58,136 nt of DNA from Butyrivibrio sp. Its GTDB lineage: Bacteria; Bacillota; Clostridia; Lachnospirales; Lachnospiraceae. The translations under genes were made by a program, and so were the position numbers. Positions 1,762 to 20,431 of the stretch are shown piece after piece. Below the pieces are notes generated by a model. The model saw only the letters and a program-made list of their open reading frames with translations. It made no database searches and was not told where the DNA came from. The DNA lies in assembly GCA_017470505.1 (NCBI GenBank), contig JAFUYO010000009.1:65671-123806 (forward strand). The letters are read 5' to 3'. Each line of letters begins with the position of its first letter. The stretch's first letter is position 1.

Positions 1762-3303
1762 TCAGGCGCCGCAGTCCGCTGCGGCTCCTTCCTCTTCTTC
1801 AGGTTCAGGTGCTGCCTGAGGGATCCTTGAGTATGTCTCGGACAGAAGCCTTATGCTCCTCTCAAGGTCGTGTGAGAGGAAATTGGGAACAAGTCTCCAC
1901 TGCCAGTTGCCGTCGGATGTTCCCGGCGTGTTGATCCTCGCCTCGCGCCCCTTGCACAGATAGTCCTGAAGGGGAATGATGCACAGATCAGCCACTGACC
2001 TGTAAGCCTCTCTTATCATATCCCATACGAGCGCACCGAAATCCGTATTCATGGAATTGATGTAGCGCCTCGTAAAGTCTCTCTCCCCGTCGTTTATCTC
2101 CTGCACCCATGCAAACGTCGGTGTGTTGTCATGAGTTCCTGTGTAAACAACACTGTTCTTAGTGTGCCTGTGGTTTACATAGCAGCTGTCCCAGCTTGTA
2201 AAGCCGTACTGAAGGACCTTCATGCCGGGGAATCCCGAATCCTCAAGGAGCTTTACGTTCTCCTCCGTGTTGGTCCCAAGGTCCTCAGCGATCATGTTCA
2301 GAGTTCCGATCTTCTTTTCAAGGGCTTTGAAAAGATCCATTCCCGGTCCCTTGCACTGCTTGCCGCCTGTGGCGTCCTCATCGCCGTAGGGAACTGCATA
2401 ATACTCGGCAAAACCATGGAAGTGGTCGATCCTTATCACATCGTACCACTCGTAGTTTCTCTCTATTCTCTTAACCCACCAGTCATAGCCGTCCTTTTTA
2501 AGTCCTGCCCAGTCGTAGATGGGATTCCCCCAGAGCTGCCCCTTGGGAGAAAACGCATCCGGCGGGCATCCCGCAACAGATGTCGGGACAAGGTCCCTGT
2601 CCATGAGGAAAACTTCCGGGTGTGACCATGCATCTGCGCTGTCAAGCGCAACATAAAAAGGCAGGTCCCCGATTATCTTAACGTTCTTTTTGTGGGCATA
2701 TTTGTGTATCTTCTTCCACTCTTCGTCAAACTTAAACTGCACAAAGCAGATATAATCTATCTCGTCGCTGTACTCATCCGCAGCTTTCTTAAGTGCCGCC
2801 TTATCTCTTTTTCTGAGATCACAAGGCCAGTCAAGCCAGCTCTTTCCTTCCTGTGCGTCCTTGATCGCCACGAAAAGCGCGTAGTCTGTGAGCCAGTACC
2901 CGTTATCTTTTATGTACTTATCGAGCTCTTTTCTGTCGCCTTGTTCTATAAAATTGTCGTAAGCTTTTTTCAGAAGCTTTCCTCTGTTCTCATAGAGCTT
3001 GCCATAGTCGACCTTCTCAATGTCGCTTCCGAAATCAGCCTCATTTGCATCCTCCCATGTGAGGAGCTTCTCCTCGATAAGACTCTCAGGTGATATAAAA
3101 TACGGATTTCCTGCAAAAGCTGAAAAAGGCTGGTAGGGCGAATTGCCAAACCCTGTAGGCCCGAAGGGAAGAACCTGCCAGTAGCCCTGTCCTGAGTTGT
3201 ACAGGAAATCAATAAAATCAGTCGCCTCCTTTGAAAAACATCCAATACCGAACTTTGACGGCAGCGAGAACACCGGCATCAAAATTCCACTCTCTCGATT
3301 CAT
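1762..3303 (-). CDS. malQ: 4-alpha-glucanotransferase (amylomaltase)
   Basis: A GH77 enzyme that transfers alpha-1,4-glucan segments between maltodextrins and releases glucose, feeding glycogen phosphorylase. The N-terminus RESGILMPVFSLPSKFGIG is the family hallmark. The nucleophile Asp lies in VIRIDHFHGF, the acid/base Glu in MIAEDLG, and the third carboxylate in YTGTHDNTP. About 513 residues is the usual bacterial length. The first in-frame ATG is at 3312, but AAGGAG sits only four bases from it and nine from the ATG at 3303, so 3303 is preferred. The C-terminus carries a short Glu-rich, Ala-rich tail that is not part of the catalytic fold. It is near glgP (5178-7487), with a signalling gene between. 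Confidence 0.93.
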   Translation of the reverse strand: MNRESGILMPVFSLPSKFGIGCFSKEATDFIDFLYNSGQGYWQVLPFGPTGFGNSPYQPFSAFAGNPYFISPESLIEEKLLTWEDANEADFGSDIEKVDYGKLYENRGKLLKKAYDNFIEQGDRKELDKYIKDNGYWLTDYALFVAIKDAQEGKSWLDWPCDLRKRDKAALKKAADEYSDEIDYICFVQFKFDEEWKKIHKYAHKKNVKIIGDLPFYVALDSADAWSHPEVFLMDRDLVPTSVAGCPPDAFSPKGQLWGNPIYDWAGLKKDGYDWWVKRIERNYEWYDVIRIDHFHGFAEYYAVPYGDEDATGGKQCKGPGMDLFKALEKKIGTLNMIAEDLGTNTEENVKLLEDSGFPGMKVLQYGFTSWDSCYVNHRHTKNSVVYTGTHDNTPTFAWVQEINDGERDFTRRYINSMNTDFGALVWDMIREAYRSVADLCIIPLQDYLCKGREARINTPGTSDGNWQWRLVPNFLSHDLERSIRLLSETYSRIPQAAPEPEEEEGAAADCGA

Positions 3304-15264: not shown

Positions 15265-17244
15265 TTATCTTGCAACAACCTTGGTTCCTCTGTGCCTTTT
15301 AATTTCGTTGCTGCCTCCGTTTTTGATAGTTTCCTTGACGAACACGTTCATGATGTTGTTGTATCCGGTCTTGCCATCTTTACTAAATTTGGGTTCAAGA
15401 GACTCAAACTCATTTCCATCATAAATGATTGTCATAGAGTTTCCATCAGCTGTCTTCATGAGGATGAGCGTGCGCTCGCCGCTCTTTAGCACAGTGTATT
15501 CATAATCCTCAGAACTTAAGAAATCTTCAATATCTTCAACAGCCCCTTCCATCGCATCAGATGCAGCGTCCATATCAATAGGTGCGGCGGTCTGCTCAGG
15601 GCCTGACTCGTCATAGGTCAGATCCGACATCTGTGAAGCGCTCTCCTCTGCCGCCACCTGCTCTGCTGCAATCATAGCTGCTGCTACAGGATCAAGGTCT
15701 GCAGGAGCCTCTGTTGTAGGAGGTGTATCAACCGGCATCTCTTCTGCGGACTCTGCTTCTGCCGCAGGAGTTTCTGCAGTTGCTGTAAGGGCATCAACCT
15801 CCGCGTTGAGGATTGCATCCAAATTCTCTGCAGGAGTCTCTGCTACTGGAGTCTCTTCCGGAATAAATACTTCTACTTCTATTGGTGTATCGGCTGAAGG
15901 CATTGAATCTGCTGCGGGCATTGCCTCTGCTGCCATTGCCGCCATCATTGCGTCCACATCCACCGGCGCTTCTGCTGTGGGTGCTGGCTCTATCGCAGGT
16001 GCTTCCTCTGCCGCAGGCATCTCTGCTGCAGGCGCAGCTTCTGCCGCTGGTGCTTCCTCTGCCGCGGGCATTTCAACTGCAGGTGCCGCCTCTGCCGCAG
16101 GCATAGCCTCTGCTGCTGCCATTGCCGCCATCATCGCGTTCACATCCACCGGCGTTTCTGCTGCGGGGGCTGCCTCTGTCGCAGGCATTGCCTCTGCTGC
16201 TGCCATTGCTGCCATCATCGCATCCACATCTACCGGCGCTTCTGCTGCGGGTGCTTCCTCCGTCGCAGGCATAGCCTCTGCCGCCGCCATTGCCGCCATC
16301 ATCGCATCCACATCTACTGGCGCTTCTGCTGCTTCTACCACAGGTGCAGCTTCTGCTGCGGGTGCTTCCTCCGTCGCAGACATCTCAGCTGATGGTGCCG
16401 CGTCTGTCACGGGCATTGCCTCTGCTGCTGCCATTGCTGCCATCATCGCATCCACATCTACCGGCGCTTCTGCCGCGGGAGTTTCCTCCATCGCAGGCAT
16501 CTCAGCCGCAGGTGCCGCGTCTGCCGCAGGTGCCGCCTCCGCTGCGGGCATTGCCTCTGCTGCCATTGCTGCCATCATCGCGTCCACATCCACCGGCACA
16601 TCTGCTGCGGGTGCTTCCTCCGTCGCAGGCATCTCAGCTGATGGTGCCGCGTCAGCTACAGGCGCTGTATCTGCTGCGGGCATCTCCGGCATTGGAAGAT
16701 CTCCATTAGCCATCATCGCAGCCATGACTGGATCGATATCCGGAAGAGGAATATCAGCAGGCGCAGCCACACCCTCAGCAGGCGCAGCCACACTTTCTGC
16801 CGGAGCATCCTTACCTGCAGCCATCGCCGCCATCATTGCATCTACATCTGTTGCTGTCTCTGCTGCCGCCATTGCAGCCAGCATCGCATCAACATCTACA
16901 GGTGCCTCTTCAGATGCCTGTCCATCAGCAGGCGCATCTGCACCCGGTGCTGTATTCGCCGACATTGCTGCCATAGCTGCCGCCATAGCATCTGCATCAG
17001 CGGTCGCTTCAGGTCCAGGCGCTTCACTTGCCATCCCTGCCATTATAGCATCAAGATTCGGGAGATCAGGAATTGGTTCCTGAGTATCAGCTTTCTTCGG
17101 AGAACGCCTGGGCTTTGGAGCCGGCTGCTCGGCAGCACTTTCTGTCTGCGCCTCTCCGGCAGACATCGCCGCCAAAAGGTCATCCACATTAGCAGTAGAA
17201 AGATCCTGTCCATTAAGAATATCCTGAGTGCTCATGCCATCCAT
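15265..17244 (-). CDS. Ala/Met/Pro/Glu-rich repeat protein with about 15 copies of a DVDAMMAAM motif
   Basis: A 659-residue protein with no signal peptide or membrane segment, so cytosolic. Roughly 15 copies of a short amphipathic motif, consensus (D/N)(V/L/I)DAMMAAMAA, are strung on Pro/Ala/Glu linkers. Non-identical outer copies (NVDDLLAAM, NLDAIMAGM, DIDPVMAAM, NLDAILNA) show that the motif is conserved, not just low-complexity drift. The last 90 residues form a folded-looking domain (YEYTVLKSGERTLILMKTADG onward). The motif resembles the EIDALL segment with which FliM binds CheY; this is inference. I do not recognise the whole protein. The start at 17244 follows AAAGGAG; the longer start at 17268 would encode that site. 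A flotillin gene lies immediately upstream. Confidence 0.75.
   Translation of the reverse strand: MDGMSTQDILNGQDLSTANVDDLLAAMSAGEAQTESAAEQPAPKPRRSPKKADTQEPIPDLPNLDAIMAGMASEAPGPEATADADAMAAAMAAMSANTAPGADAPADGQASEEAPVDVDAMLAAMAAAETATDVDAMMAAMAAGKDAPAESVAAPAEGVAAPADIPLPDIDPVMAAMMANGDLPMPEMPAADTAPVADAAPSAEMPATEEAPAADVPVDVDAMMAAMAAEAMPAAEAAPAADAAPAAEMPAMEETPAAEAPVDVDAMMAAMAAAEAMPVTDAAPSAEMSATEEAPAAEAAPVVEAAEAPVDVDAMMAAMAAAEAMPATEEAPAAEAPVDVDAMMAAMAAAEAMPATEAAPAAETPVDVNAMMAAMAAAEAMPAAEAAPAVEMPAAEEAPAAEAAPAAEMPAAEEAPAIEPAPTAEAPVDVDAMMAAMAAEAMPAADSMPSADTPIEVEVFIPEETPVAETPAENLDAILNAEVDALTATAETPAAEAESAEEMPVDTPPTTEAPADLDPVAAAMIAAEQVAAEESASQMSDLTYDESGPEQTAAPIDMDAASDAMEGAVEDIEDFLSSEDYEYTVLKSGERTLILMKTADGNSMTIIYDGNEFESLEPKFSKDGKTGYNNIMNVFVKETIKNGGSNEIKRHRGTKVVAR
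15900..16680. repeat. Imperfect tandem DNA repeats inside the Ala-rich gene
   Basis: About six units encode the core block MAAMAAAEAMPA-linker-APVDVDAM. The DNA string GCCATCATCGC(A/G)TCCACATC recurs nearly unchanged, with variable linker lengths. Such high identity suggests recent expansion by slippage or recombination, so unit number may vary between strains. Confidence 0.8.
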
Positions 17245-17398
17245 GCTGAATCTCCTTTCATAGCTCAAAGTCGTTTGTAATATAACAATGCCGCCTGCCT
17301 CATAAGCGCACTGAGCGCGGCAAAAAGGTGACTATCTTTATTATCGTTCATTTCTGTTGGAAATTACAGTAAACTTTTTATAAACAAGCTCATTTAAA

Positions 17399-17454: not shown

Positions 17455-18963
17455 TTACTTCGTTTCTACGGAAACATCAGCGCCGGTGATGTTGATGTTC
17501 TTATTTACCTTGGCATCGTATGTTCCTGCTTTCATGATCTCTGTGAAATCAACCCCTGTTGCCTCTGACATGGTATCAAAAACCTGTTTCATGACAATTG
17601 GCATATTCCCTGAAATCTGGCTCGCGCCGTTTGTGCCATCGCCCGTGCCATAGATGTTGATCTTGTCAATCTGTGACAGAGGTTTTGCAATTTCTGCTGC
17701 CATCTGAGGCATGATCTTGATCATCATCTCCGCCATTGCTGCGCCGTTGTACTTCTTGTAAGCCTCAGCTTTTTTCTCCATTGCCTCTGCTTCCGCAAGG
17801 CCCTTTGCCTTTATGGCTTCAGCTTCTGCCTTACCTTTCGCTGCGATACCTGCTGCCTCTGCATCGTATTTTGCCTTGATGCCGGCTGCTTCCTGCTCTG
17901 CCGCGAACTTCTGGGCCTCAGCCTGGGCCTTTTTGGCATCTGCCTCTCTCTCCTGTTCGTACTTTGCAGCTTCAGCTTTCTTCTGCCTCTGGATGAGTTC
18001 TGCCTCCGCCTTCTTTTCCATCTGGTACTTCTCGGCGTCAGCTTTTTTCTCGATCTCAGCTGCAAGCTCCTGCTGCTTTACAATAACCTCTTTCTGCTTC
18101 AGCTCGGCCTCACGCTCAGCCTTCGCGATCTGCGCGTTAACGGTTGCCGTCTGGATGGATTTCTGCTGTTCCTGCTGCTGGATTTCATAAGCGGCATCGG
18201 CAATAGCGCCTGCCGTGTCTGCTTCTTTTTTAAGTTCCGCCTGCTTGATGGCCAGTGCGTTGTTCTTTTCTGCAATCTCTGTCTGCGCCAGAACCCTCGC
18301 ATCGTTGGCTGCCTTGTCGGCTTCCGCCTGTGCGATTGCCACGTCCCTGTCCGCCTGTGCCTTTGCAATTGCTGCGTCCTTTTTGATCTTGGCTGTGTTG
18401 TCCATACCCAGGTCACTTATCAGCCCGTTCTCATCAGTTACGTTCTGGATGTTGCACGAGAGGATCTCGATACCGAGCTTGTTCATATCCTTTGAAGCCT
18501 TCTCCATAACCTGATCCGAGAAGCTGTCCCTGTCGGTGTTGATGGTCTTAAGAGCCAGTGTTCCGATGATCTCACGCATGTTACCCTGCAGCGAATCCTG
18601 CAGATCCATAGTGATCTGCTCGGGGTCTTTATTCAGGAAGTTCTTGGCTGCCAGCTGGATGGCCTCCGATGTCGTTCCTATCCTCACCTTTGCAACAGCA
18701 TCCACATTCACATTGATGAAGTCATTCGTGGGAACGCTCTGCTCTGTCTTGATATCAACGGTCATCTGTCCCAGATACAATTTGTCGACTCTTTCAAAAA
18801 ACGGGATCTTGATACCGGCGCGTCCTATCAATATCCTTGGGGTCTTCCTGAGTCCCGAGATGATGAAAGCCCTGTCCGGAGGAGCCTTCACATATCCGGT
18901 GGCGATTATCATTACCACCAGAAGGATGAGTACCGCGAAAACAGCTGTGATTGATAGTGTCAT
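17455..18963 (-). CDS. Flotillin-like SPFH membrane scaffold protein
   Basis: A 502-residue flotillin. A hydrophobic N-terminal segment (about residues 4-23) anchors it. An SPFH/band-7 domain follows (about 35-190), including QSVPTNDFINVNVDAVAKVRI. A long Ala/Glu/Lys-rich coiled coil runs to about residue 420 with KAEAEAIKAKGLAEAEAMEKK repeats, then a C-terminal domain. Such proteins oligomerise and organise membrane microdomains and partner proteins. The first frame start (18996) precedes the ribosome site; AGAGG with ATG at 18963 gives the true start. Its leader carries a manganese-type riboswitch (19020-19157), which is unexpected for this family. A GGGAGC-ACA-GCTCCC hairpin sits directly before the ribosome site. 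Confidence 0.93.
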   Translation of the reverse strand: MTLSITAVFAVLILLVVMIIATGYVKAPPDRAFIISGLRKTPRILIGRAGIKIPFFERVDKLYLGQMTVDIKTEQSVPTNDFINVNVDAVAKVRIGTTSEAIQLAAKNFLNKDPEQITMDLQDSLQGNMREIIGTLALKTINTDRDSFSDQVMEKASKDMNKLGIEILSCNIQNVTDENGLISDLGMDNTAKIKKDAAIAKAQADRDVAIAQAEADKAANDARVLAQTEIAEKNNALAIKQAELKKEADTAGAIADAAYEIQQQEQQKSIQTATVNAQIAKAEREAELKQKEVIVKQQELAAEIEKKADAEKYQMEKKAEAELIQRQKKAEAAKYEQEREADAKKAQAEAQKFAAEQEAAGIKAKYDAEAAGIAAKGKAEAEAIKAKGLAEAEAMEKKAEAYKKYNGAAMAEMMIKIMPQMAAEIAKPLSQIDKINIYGTGDGTNGASQISGNMPIVMKQVFDTMSEATGVDFTEIMKAGTYDAKVNKNINITGADVSVETK

Positions 18964-19019
18964 AAAAACCTCTCTTTCCGGGAGCTGTGCTCCCAATGGC
19001 GTCTGCGATAAGTTTTTTT

Positions 19020-19157
19020 AAAAAAGCAAGACTCCTACCGCAAACAATTGTTTATTTGCGATAAAAGTCTTGCAGTTTGACTTGATACGGGAGATATCAC
19101 TATCTCCGACCTGACGATTTCAAGAGTACCTGTAGGCACCCGCTACTCCCTTTTACC
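19020..19157 (-). promoter_or_regulatory. yybP-ykoY (manganese) riboswitch with terminator platform, upstream of flotillin
   Basis: On the minus strand the aptamer runs from 19157 to 19060. It begins GGTAAAAGGGAGTAGCG (conserved GGGAGUAGC loop) and ends TGCAAGACTTTTATC (conserved GCAAGAC plus the P1 strand). The first and last segments pair as P1. Between them are a short hairpin with loop TACA and a long arm with CGTCA, a perfect GGAGATA-GTGA-TATCTCC hairpin and CTTGA/TCAAG closing. A mutually exclusive terminator uses GCAAGACT (19066-19073) with AGTCTTGC (19026-19033), then six T. By established knowledge of the class, Mn2+ stabilises P1 and so prevents termination: an ON switch. Confidence 0.85.
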
Positions 19158-19477: not shown

Positions 19478-20431
19478 TTACTTCGCCTTGCCCAAATAAG
19501 CTGCAACGCGCTTGGCCACGTTGTCCTTGATGTTATTGTAGAAGTAAGTATAGTCATTGCCGTGGCGGCCATCCGGTCCGAAGAACTCGGCAGCGACCTT
19601 GGCAACGTCCTCGGGCACCGGCTCAATCCTGGCATTCGTCACGACTGTGCCGCGGGCAAGGTTTATTTGCGCATCCGCACCCACATCCCCGATGGAAGGC
19701 TCACCGGTTTTCGCATCCACTACGATGGAACCCAAATTCAGACTTGCCGGTGCGTAGGTTTCATCCAGCTTCCAGTTGAGGGGGTTGATGCTCCTCGTCT
19801 CAGGCAGGATCACAACGGATTTGGCGTTGAGCTCCACGTTCCTGGGGCCCTAGGTGTTCCATGCGATGATGACGCCTGTATCGGTCTCGCCGGTGGCAAA
19901 CTTCAGGTGCGGGTTGGACGCAAGGTAGTCATTCGTGACGGAGTAGCCAATGGCATAGGCCGCGACCATGCGCGCATAGTACTCGGGGTGATCCTTAAAA
20001 TATGTCCTCAGCAGCAGCAGGACCATGGCCGAGCCCTGGCTGTGGCCCGCGATGATGAACGGGCGGCCGCCGTTGCAGTTCTCAAAGTAGTAATCCAGCG
20101 CGGCGGTGATATCCTCGAAGGGCAGATTCAGAAGGGCATTGGTGAAGTCCCCGGTCTTCCTGATGACTTCCCCTGCGTACCGCAAACCGGACTGGCGGTA
20201 GTACGGCGCAAACACATTGGTGGAATCCGCGTAAGCGGTCGCGTGATCCCGGAATTCGAGCTTCGAGCCTTCCAGAAACTCGGGGTTGTCGAGGGTCGCG
20301 TAATCGGGAGCGCCCTCTTCAAAGCTTGACATGATATAATCCGTGGCGAAAATGTAAAACGTGTCGACTTCCTTTGTGATCTCCGGAATTCTGCACCAGC
20401 TGGTATTCTGTGAGTAATCAATTGAATTCAT
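19478..20431 (-). pseudogene. DUF3089 alpha/beta hydrolase interrupted by an in-frame amber codon
   Basis: One open frame of 317 sense-equivalent positions is broken only by TAG at 19850-19852. The first part carries the nucleophile elbow AGHSQGSAM and ends at IIAWNT. The same frame continues with GPRNVELNAKSVVILPETRSINPLNWK, the usual DUF3089 continuation. A single G-to-T change in a GAG (Glu) codon would explain the stop. Members are lipase/esterase-like proteins of unknown substrate. A good ribosome site (AAGGAGGAGC) precedes the ATG at 20431. Base composition is more GC-rich than neighbours, hinting at transfer. TAG is used as an ordinary stop in several other genes here, so recoding is unlikely. 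Confidence 0.8.

Follow-up and report, generated by a model that had tools for sequence, protein, structure and literature searches.

Manganese riboswitches are known for their control of metal exporters, and the question raised by this locus is why such an RNA should stand in front of a flotillin gene. The locus lies in a 58,136 nt stretch of a Butyrivibrio sp. contig (the whole of it is here called the window; features in Table 1), for which a sequence-only reading had proposed the arrangement. The evidence supports a real leader that fits the yybP-ykoY (Mn2+) riboswitch class, with Mn2+ as its presumed ligand. The fit to the class, a recurring pairing with flotillin genes, covarying helices and an overlap between helix P1 and a terminator all emerge from the computations described here, and we consider it quite probable that the leader is a riboswitch of this class, with Mn2+ or a closely similar divalent ion as its signal and activation of the flotillin gene as its output.

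Table 1. Features of the flotillin locus, numbered from the first letter of the window; paired positions are given in the direction of transcription.
Feature	Position	Strand	Basis
Flotillin gene, start ATG at 18963	17455..18963	-	PF01145 and PF15975 over cut-off
Hairpin immediately 5' of the ribosome-binding site, outside the riboswitch class	18978..18996	-	
Intrinsic terminator, a stem at 19073-19026 followed by a T run; the P1 3' strand lies in its 5' arm	19020..19073	-	
Aptamer fitting the yybP-ykoY (Mn2+) class, P1 to P1	19060..19157	-	R1 match and elements read in the sequence
P1 helix, GGTAAAAG pairing with CTTTTATC	19157-19150 with 19067-19060	-	sequence
L1 5' strand, GGGAGTAGC	19142..19150 (19150-19142)	-	sequence
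P2 hairpin, GGTGCC/GGTACT	19125..19140	-	read from sequence; paired in R1 alignment
P3	19081..19124	-	covariation in 24 related leaders
P3 lower stem, CTTGA/TCAAG	19124-19120/19085-19081	-	
P3 internal loop, AAU/UA, then CG/CG pairs, then L3	19119-19117/19087-19086	-	
L3 loop, UCGUCA	19117-19112	-	sequence; third diagnostic element, absent from the sequence-only reading
L3 (UCA) adenosine, corresponding to A41 of L. lactis, which senses Mn2+	19112	-	by motif; role per accessible text of PMC6754395
P3 upper stem, GGAGATA/TATCTCC	19107-19101/19096-19090	-	
L1 3' strand, GCAAGAC	19067..19073	-	sequence

The gene behind the leader is indeed a flotillin gene, as had been claimed: its product carries the SPFH/Band 7 and flotillin domains (PF01145 and PF15975, both over cut-off), and its best NCBIfam model is FloT (NF058507), at 305 bits under that model's cut-off of 700. 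Read along the minus strand from 19157 to 19060, the leader runs P1-GGGAGUAGC-P2-P3 with UCGUCA-linker-GCAAGAC-P1. Both L1 strands are thus present, GGGAGUAGC and GCAAGAC being what we take to be the motif letters of the yybP-ykoY class, and the L3 loop supplies an adenosine at the metal-sensing position. The elements picked out by the sequence-only reading (GGGAGTAGC, GCAAGAC, P1 and the terminator) lie on the minus strand where it had placed them. By our reading of the sequence, an extra G-C pair on P2 (19141/19124) would compete with P3. No P4 pairing, and hence no four-way junction, was found in 19080-19074 of the window leader, where a short linker stands; a similar linker, judged by eye, replaces P4 in most of 84 transporter leaders, and because these leaders of the same branch do without P4 we did not treat that helix as required. 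The 146-nt leader folds 5.9 standard deviations below dinucleotide shuffles, the terminator hairpin accounting for most of the difference. Matches of the terminator to microRNA families were rejected as hairpin artefacts. A simple scan found no promoter, which counts against the reading that we favour.

The sequence-only reading had staked class membership on the Rfam model RF00080, and taken literally it loses on that point: the model finds nothing in the window, even when the threshold is relaxed to E 10, and its gathering cut-off is accordingly not reached by the leader. Controls nevertheless make this miss uninformative, and RF00080 was dropped as a judge of membership. The model passes its cut-off in none of 196 genomes of the same order (41 have weaker matches) and in two of 14 control genomes, and it has no match in two transporter-leader loci (L051, L032). 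In E. coli it has no match at alx and gives 41.6 bits, against a cut-off of 45, for the mntP leader, which is reported to sense Mn (PMC9603457, accessible text). Because no genome of the order passes and even E. coli mntP falls below the cut-off, the miss does not refute the class; and since RF00080 overlooks the clostridial branch, such leaders are probably under-annotated in these bacteria.

Membership was instead judged with R1, a model trained on 84 leaders of Na/Ca exchanger, OAD beta, ATPase, Na/Pi and ArsB type genes, with no SPFH leader among them. A pattern scan of named genomes gave at least 118 stretches and, together with four earlier leaders, 124 hits in 122 loci; the pattern demanded the L1 motifs and GTCA, so that these letters are bound to be conserved among the training leaders. 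The downstream gene was taken, as a rule of thumb, to be the longest open reading frame starting within 600 nt (none for four of the 124 hits); labels were checked with Pfam or NCBIfam for individual members or a near BLAST relative, and extended to the remainder by BLAST. Among the 124 listed hits the class usually precedes transporters: 28 genes are of Na/Ca exchanger type, 21 of OAD beta type, 20 encode P-type ATPases, nine are of Na/Pi type, six of CitMHS/ArsB type, four GDT1 and two TerC. The same hits include 13 genes for SPFH proteins (seven flotillins and six of HflK type), seven for an unknown protein of about 145 aa, and 10 singles. One locus, L147, has two class leaders in tandem (889-981 and 2035-2134, plus strand), each before its own gene of Na/Ca exchanger type.

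The 84 aligned transporter leaders show covariation, and the window leader fits the model built from these related bacteria, scoring 62.4 bits (E 9.8e-15 in a search of the window). It is also the sole clear R1 match in its own genome (E 4.6e-13, the next match having E 0.4), all R1 E-values being rough owing to a short calibration. R1 matches 20 of the 20 RF00080 loci tried, which were the best-scoring among the 41 genomes with an RF00080 match, and one flotillin leader reaches 17.0 bits with RF00080 at the R1 site; two flotillin leaders carry AAAGGGGAGTAGC and CAAGACCTTT. R1 has no match at E. coli mntP and gives 9.6 bits at alx; it is therefore a model of the clostridial branch, and as a universal model of the class it fails on mntP. 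Covariation supports all three helices of the flotillin leaders. Across P1, P2 and P3 in 17 leaders (16 of flotillin genes and one whose gene lies off its contig), in an alignment fitted to R1, none of 500 shuffles scored as high for four of five measures and one of 500 for the fifth. In P1 and P3 of 24 related leaders aligned with MAFFT, 12 of 20 pairs changed on both sides, again with no shuffle of 500 as high. A MAFFT alignment of four sequences misaligned P2 and was left out of model building. The class named by the sequence-only reading is thus borne out by the R1 score, the L1 and L3 elements and the covarying helices.

How such a leader might act can be read from its anatomy. The 5' arm of the terminator includes the 3' strand of P1, so that P1 and the terminator are mutually exclusive, as had been proposed. 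The same overlap is found in all 16 flotillin leaders: the aptamer's final 12 nt, within which the P1 3' strand lies, pair at 11 or 12 of 12 positions into a downstream arm, and shuffled downstream DNA pairs as well in at most four of 500 trials. A run of at least four T follows the hairpin in 13 of the 16; the T runs are shorter or weak in L062, L339 and L347, which counts against the favoured reading. By analogy with solved members of the class, this overlap would be the wiring of a transcriptional ON switch. In L. lactis, according to the accessible parts of the two reports, Mn2+ makes the corresponding helix more stable and keeps the terminator from forming (PMC11087558), and the L3 adenosine contacts Mn2+ through N7 (PMC6754395). 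One review, in its accessible text, terms the class OFF switches (PMC11477304), a label contradicted by PMC11087558, as far as accessible, and by the anatomy here. The solved members are likewise our guide to the metal and the mechanism. At low metal, the P1 3' strand would enter the terminator hairpin and transcription would stop before the flotillin gene, whereas at high metal the ion would bridge L1 and L3, P1 would be held, the terminator blocked and flotillin mRNA made. Going one step further, we propose that too much Mn2+ may put a strain on the quality control of membrane proteins, and that flotillin may for this reason be induced together with metal efflux.

A survey of related flotillin leaders, as the sequence-only reading had suggested, found the arrangement conserved in 16 genomes. 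In 392 genomes of the order, which gave 117 flotillin matches at E at most 1e-60 and of which 211 are matched by R1 at E 0.001, an R1 search of upstream DNA placed class RNA just upstream of 11 of the 117 flotillin genes (G000, G019, G308, G346, G419, G390, G334, G414, G043, G108 and G198). A genus survey added G002, G423 and G429, and loci L062 and L074 complete the 16; L109 (Eubacterium uniforme) was not counted in addition to G419, with which it shares its flotillin. The numbered genomes with the pair fall in two families (f1, f8). Since R1 matches one to three times in a genome, we estimate that chance would give far fewer than one such pairing. The RNA was not found at the other 106 of the 117 flotillin genes, a count that includes four with less than 250 nt of upstream DNA (17 nt in G282, 11 in G095, about 2 in G153 and 240 in G309), and this weighs against the favoured reading. 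So does a 60-row tree of flotillins, 16 of them with the RNA, on which the trait needs 10 changes, seven of them forced; its long branches leave deep placements unsure, and G153 is scored as lacking the RNA despite having almost no upstream DNA. These changes give no support to the idea that the flotillin leader arose only once. Only two of 500 shuffles are as low as 10 changes, so the RNA is clustered as well as patchy on the tree, a distribution that we read from the sequences as repeated gain or loss of the leader.

Patchiness on flotillin genes, and the usual place of the class before transporters, would also suit the alternative that the sequence-only reading itself offered, namely that a metal exporter gene once stood between the leader and flotillin, and that its loss passed the switch on to flotillin. 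That account sits poorly with the same direct pairing in 16 genomes and with a P1 3' strand that enters the hairpin in 16 of 16 flotillin leaders, and an MntP exporter, whose flanks lack any R1 match, is encoded elsewhere in the own genome (84% complete). PF01699 was not found in that genome, at the same completeness. Neighbouring genes were compared in 15 of the genomes (G198 left out) over stretches of 4-14 kb, using the 14 largest clusters and all clusters not wholly within flotillin; genes besides flotillin are common only to the close pairs L339/L347, L344/L345 and L109/L342, the last being one organism twice. Because flotillin is the only common neighbour beyond such close pairs, a lost exporter is highly unlikely. 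A leader with nothing but a terminator that came to resemble the class by chance would account for the missing RF00080 match, but it is scarcely credible beside an R1 E-value of about 1e-14, the covariation and the recurrence.

The main rival grants the class and shifts its specificity: a specialised sub-type, altered around L3 in specificity or threshold, would respond to another divalent ion, or to Mn2+ at another concentration, and would serve membrane-maintenance genes rather than exporters. It draws on an internal loop in P3, here called type B (RA-N/UA, adjoining the CG/CG pairs under L3), which occurs in 13 of 16 flotillin leaders and seven of seven leaders of the small protein, compared with three of 90 transporter leaders, all ATPases (43 of the 90 are type A and 44 were left unclassified by the script); none of nine hflK leaders has it. 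Since an internal loop beside L3 is rare in transporter leaders, the ligand of the flotillin leaders may differ, and a review, in its accessible text, judges that divalent ions other than Mn2+ seem a likely signal for some common yybP variants (PMC7266159). Type B leaders, however, keep the L1 strands, the UCA of L3 and the CG/CG pairs unchanged, and the association is uncorrected for shared ancestry and leaves those 44 transporter leaders aside; its Fisher value of 5e-18 likewise ignores ancestry and includes L104, L127 and L133, whose gene is not firmly assigned. On balance we regard a shifted specificity as unlikely, and Mn2+ sensing as in the solved members remains our preferred reading.

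Among the leaders that carry the type B loop, 24 were aligned: those of 13 flotillin genes, those of seven genes of the small protein, and L104, L127, L133 and L082 (genes not firmly assigned). GGGAGTAG is invariant in all 24, those from the pattern scan having been chosen for it, and pairs changed on both sides in five of five cases in the stem below the loop and four of five above. It is conceivable, although we would lean against it, that these leaders form a structurally distinct Mn2+ riboswitch sub-type, recognisable by its conserved loop and dedicated to membrane maintenance instead of export, and that together with class leaders of hflK-hflC and of one htpX-like gene they place membrane microdomains and membrane proteolysis in one regulon under metal control, which may have its own metal threshold or specificity. 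The protein of about 145 aa has a type B leader in all seven of its loci (L046, L047, L066, L078, L106, L144 and L146); it gave no Pfam match over cut-off for two members and no NCBIfam match for one. Among four of these loci, a YccF-like gene follows in L066 (by Pfam), L078 and L144, and not in L046.

Flotillin is not the only putative membrane-maintenance gene behind leaders of the class. The RNA stands before eight of 60 hflK genes in the 392 genomes, the own genome not among them; it precedes hflK in six named loci (L052, L077, L087, L121, L137 and L145) as well as in L192 and L194-L196, and an hflC-like gene follows hflK in all six named loci, assigned to Band 7 by Pfam for one. In a metagenome-assembled genome labelled Geobacter, a class leader (L033, 3531-3638, minus strand) precedes an M48 peptidase gene of HtpX type. 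The accessible part of a study in B. subtilis lists FloT, FloA, HtpX and FtsH among the proteins that were purified together with the Mn2+ exporters MeeF or MeeY, and reports that FtsH is essential when both exporters are absent (PMC10550928). The reading that we favour is a putative Mn2+-induced programme of membrane maintenance. The occurrence of flotillin as target in 16 genomes, together with hflK-hflC, suggests that an excess of metal is handled by the cell as a problem of the membrane as well, and the leader class with its recurring flotillin partner points to a regulatory connection between metal stress and the organisation of the membrane; this would be a counterpart to the physical association that the accessible text of PMC10550928 reports from B. 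subtilis between Mn2+ exporters on one side and flotillins, FtsH and HtpX on the other.

Set beside known systems, the window leader shares with the RF00080 class the L1 pair GGGAGUAGC...GCAAGAC, a sensing adenosine in L3 and a P1 that overlaps an intrinsic terminator (PMC6754395, PMC11087558, both as far as accessible); it differs in having no Rfam match, no P4, an additional internal loop in P3, and flotillin rather than a transporter as its target. The L. lactis Mn2+ riboswitch, a transcriptional ON switch, is alike in that the 3' strand of its switch helix otherwise enters the terminator (PMC11087558, accessible text), but it has a four-way junction (PMC6754395, accessible text), whereas three helices leave the junction here. 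In B. subtilis, a Mn-responsive riboswitch acts on the exporter gene meeY (ykoY), and flotillins, HtpX and FtsH co-purify with its product or with MeeF; the accessible text states that the riboswitch controls meeY, not flotillin (PMC10550928). A literature search on yybP-ykoY with flotillin returned one work, on co-purification; searches on yybP or yybP-ykoY with HflK, prohibitin or SPFH, and on manganese riboswitches with SPFH, returned none, although the 2015 papers by Dambach and Price may list SPFH genes. The Streptococcus sRNA 10 family (RF02617, SSRC10) does not match the window leader; below its cut-off of 56 bits it matches one flotillin leader (L109, 2627-2749, minus strand, 43.2 bits) and one transporter leader (L051, 70-200, plus strand, 33.0 bits), and it may be that SSRC10 is itself related to the Mn2+ riboswitch.

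The surroundings of the flotillin gene yielded some minor observations. After it, on the same strand, lies a gene (15265-17268) for a repetitive 667-aa protein rich in Ala, Met and Pro, for which neither Pfam nor NCBIfam gave a match. At 19478-20431, also on the minus strand, a DUF3089 (alpha/beta hydrolase-like) gene is apparently split by an in-frame TAG near 19850, the Pfam match lying in the first piece only. A small hairpin 11-17 nt before the flotillin start has stems of at least five pairs in 17 of 29 loci (L001-L030), 14 of which were matched by at most eight of 200 simple shuffles. It is present also in loci without the riboswitch, and its stem letters differ between loci yet still pair.
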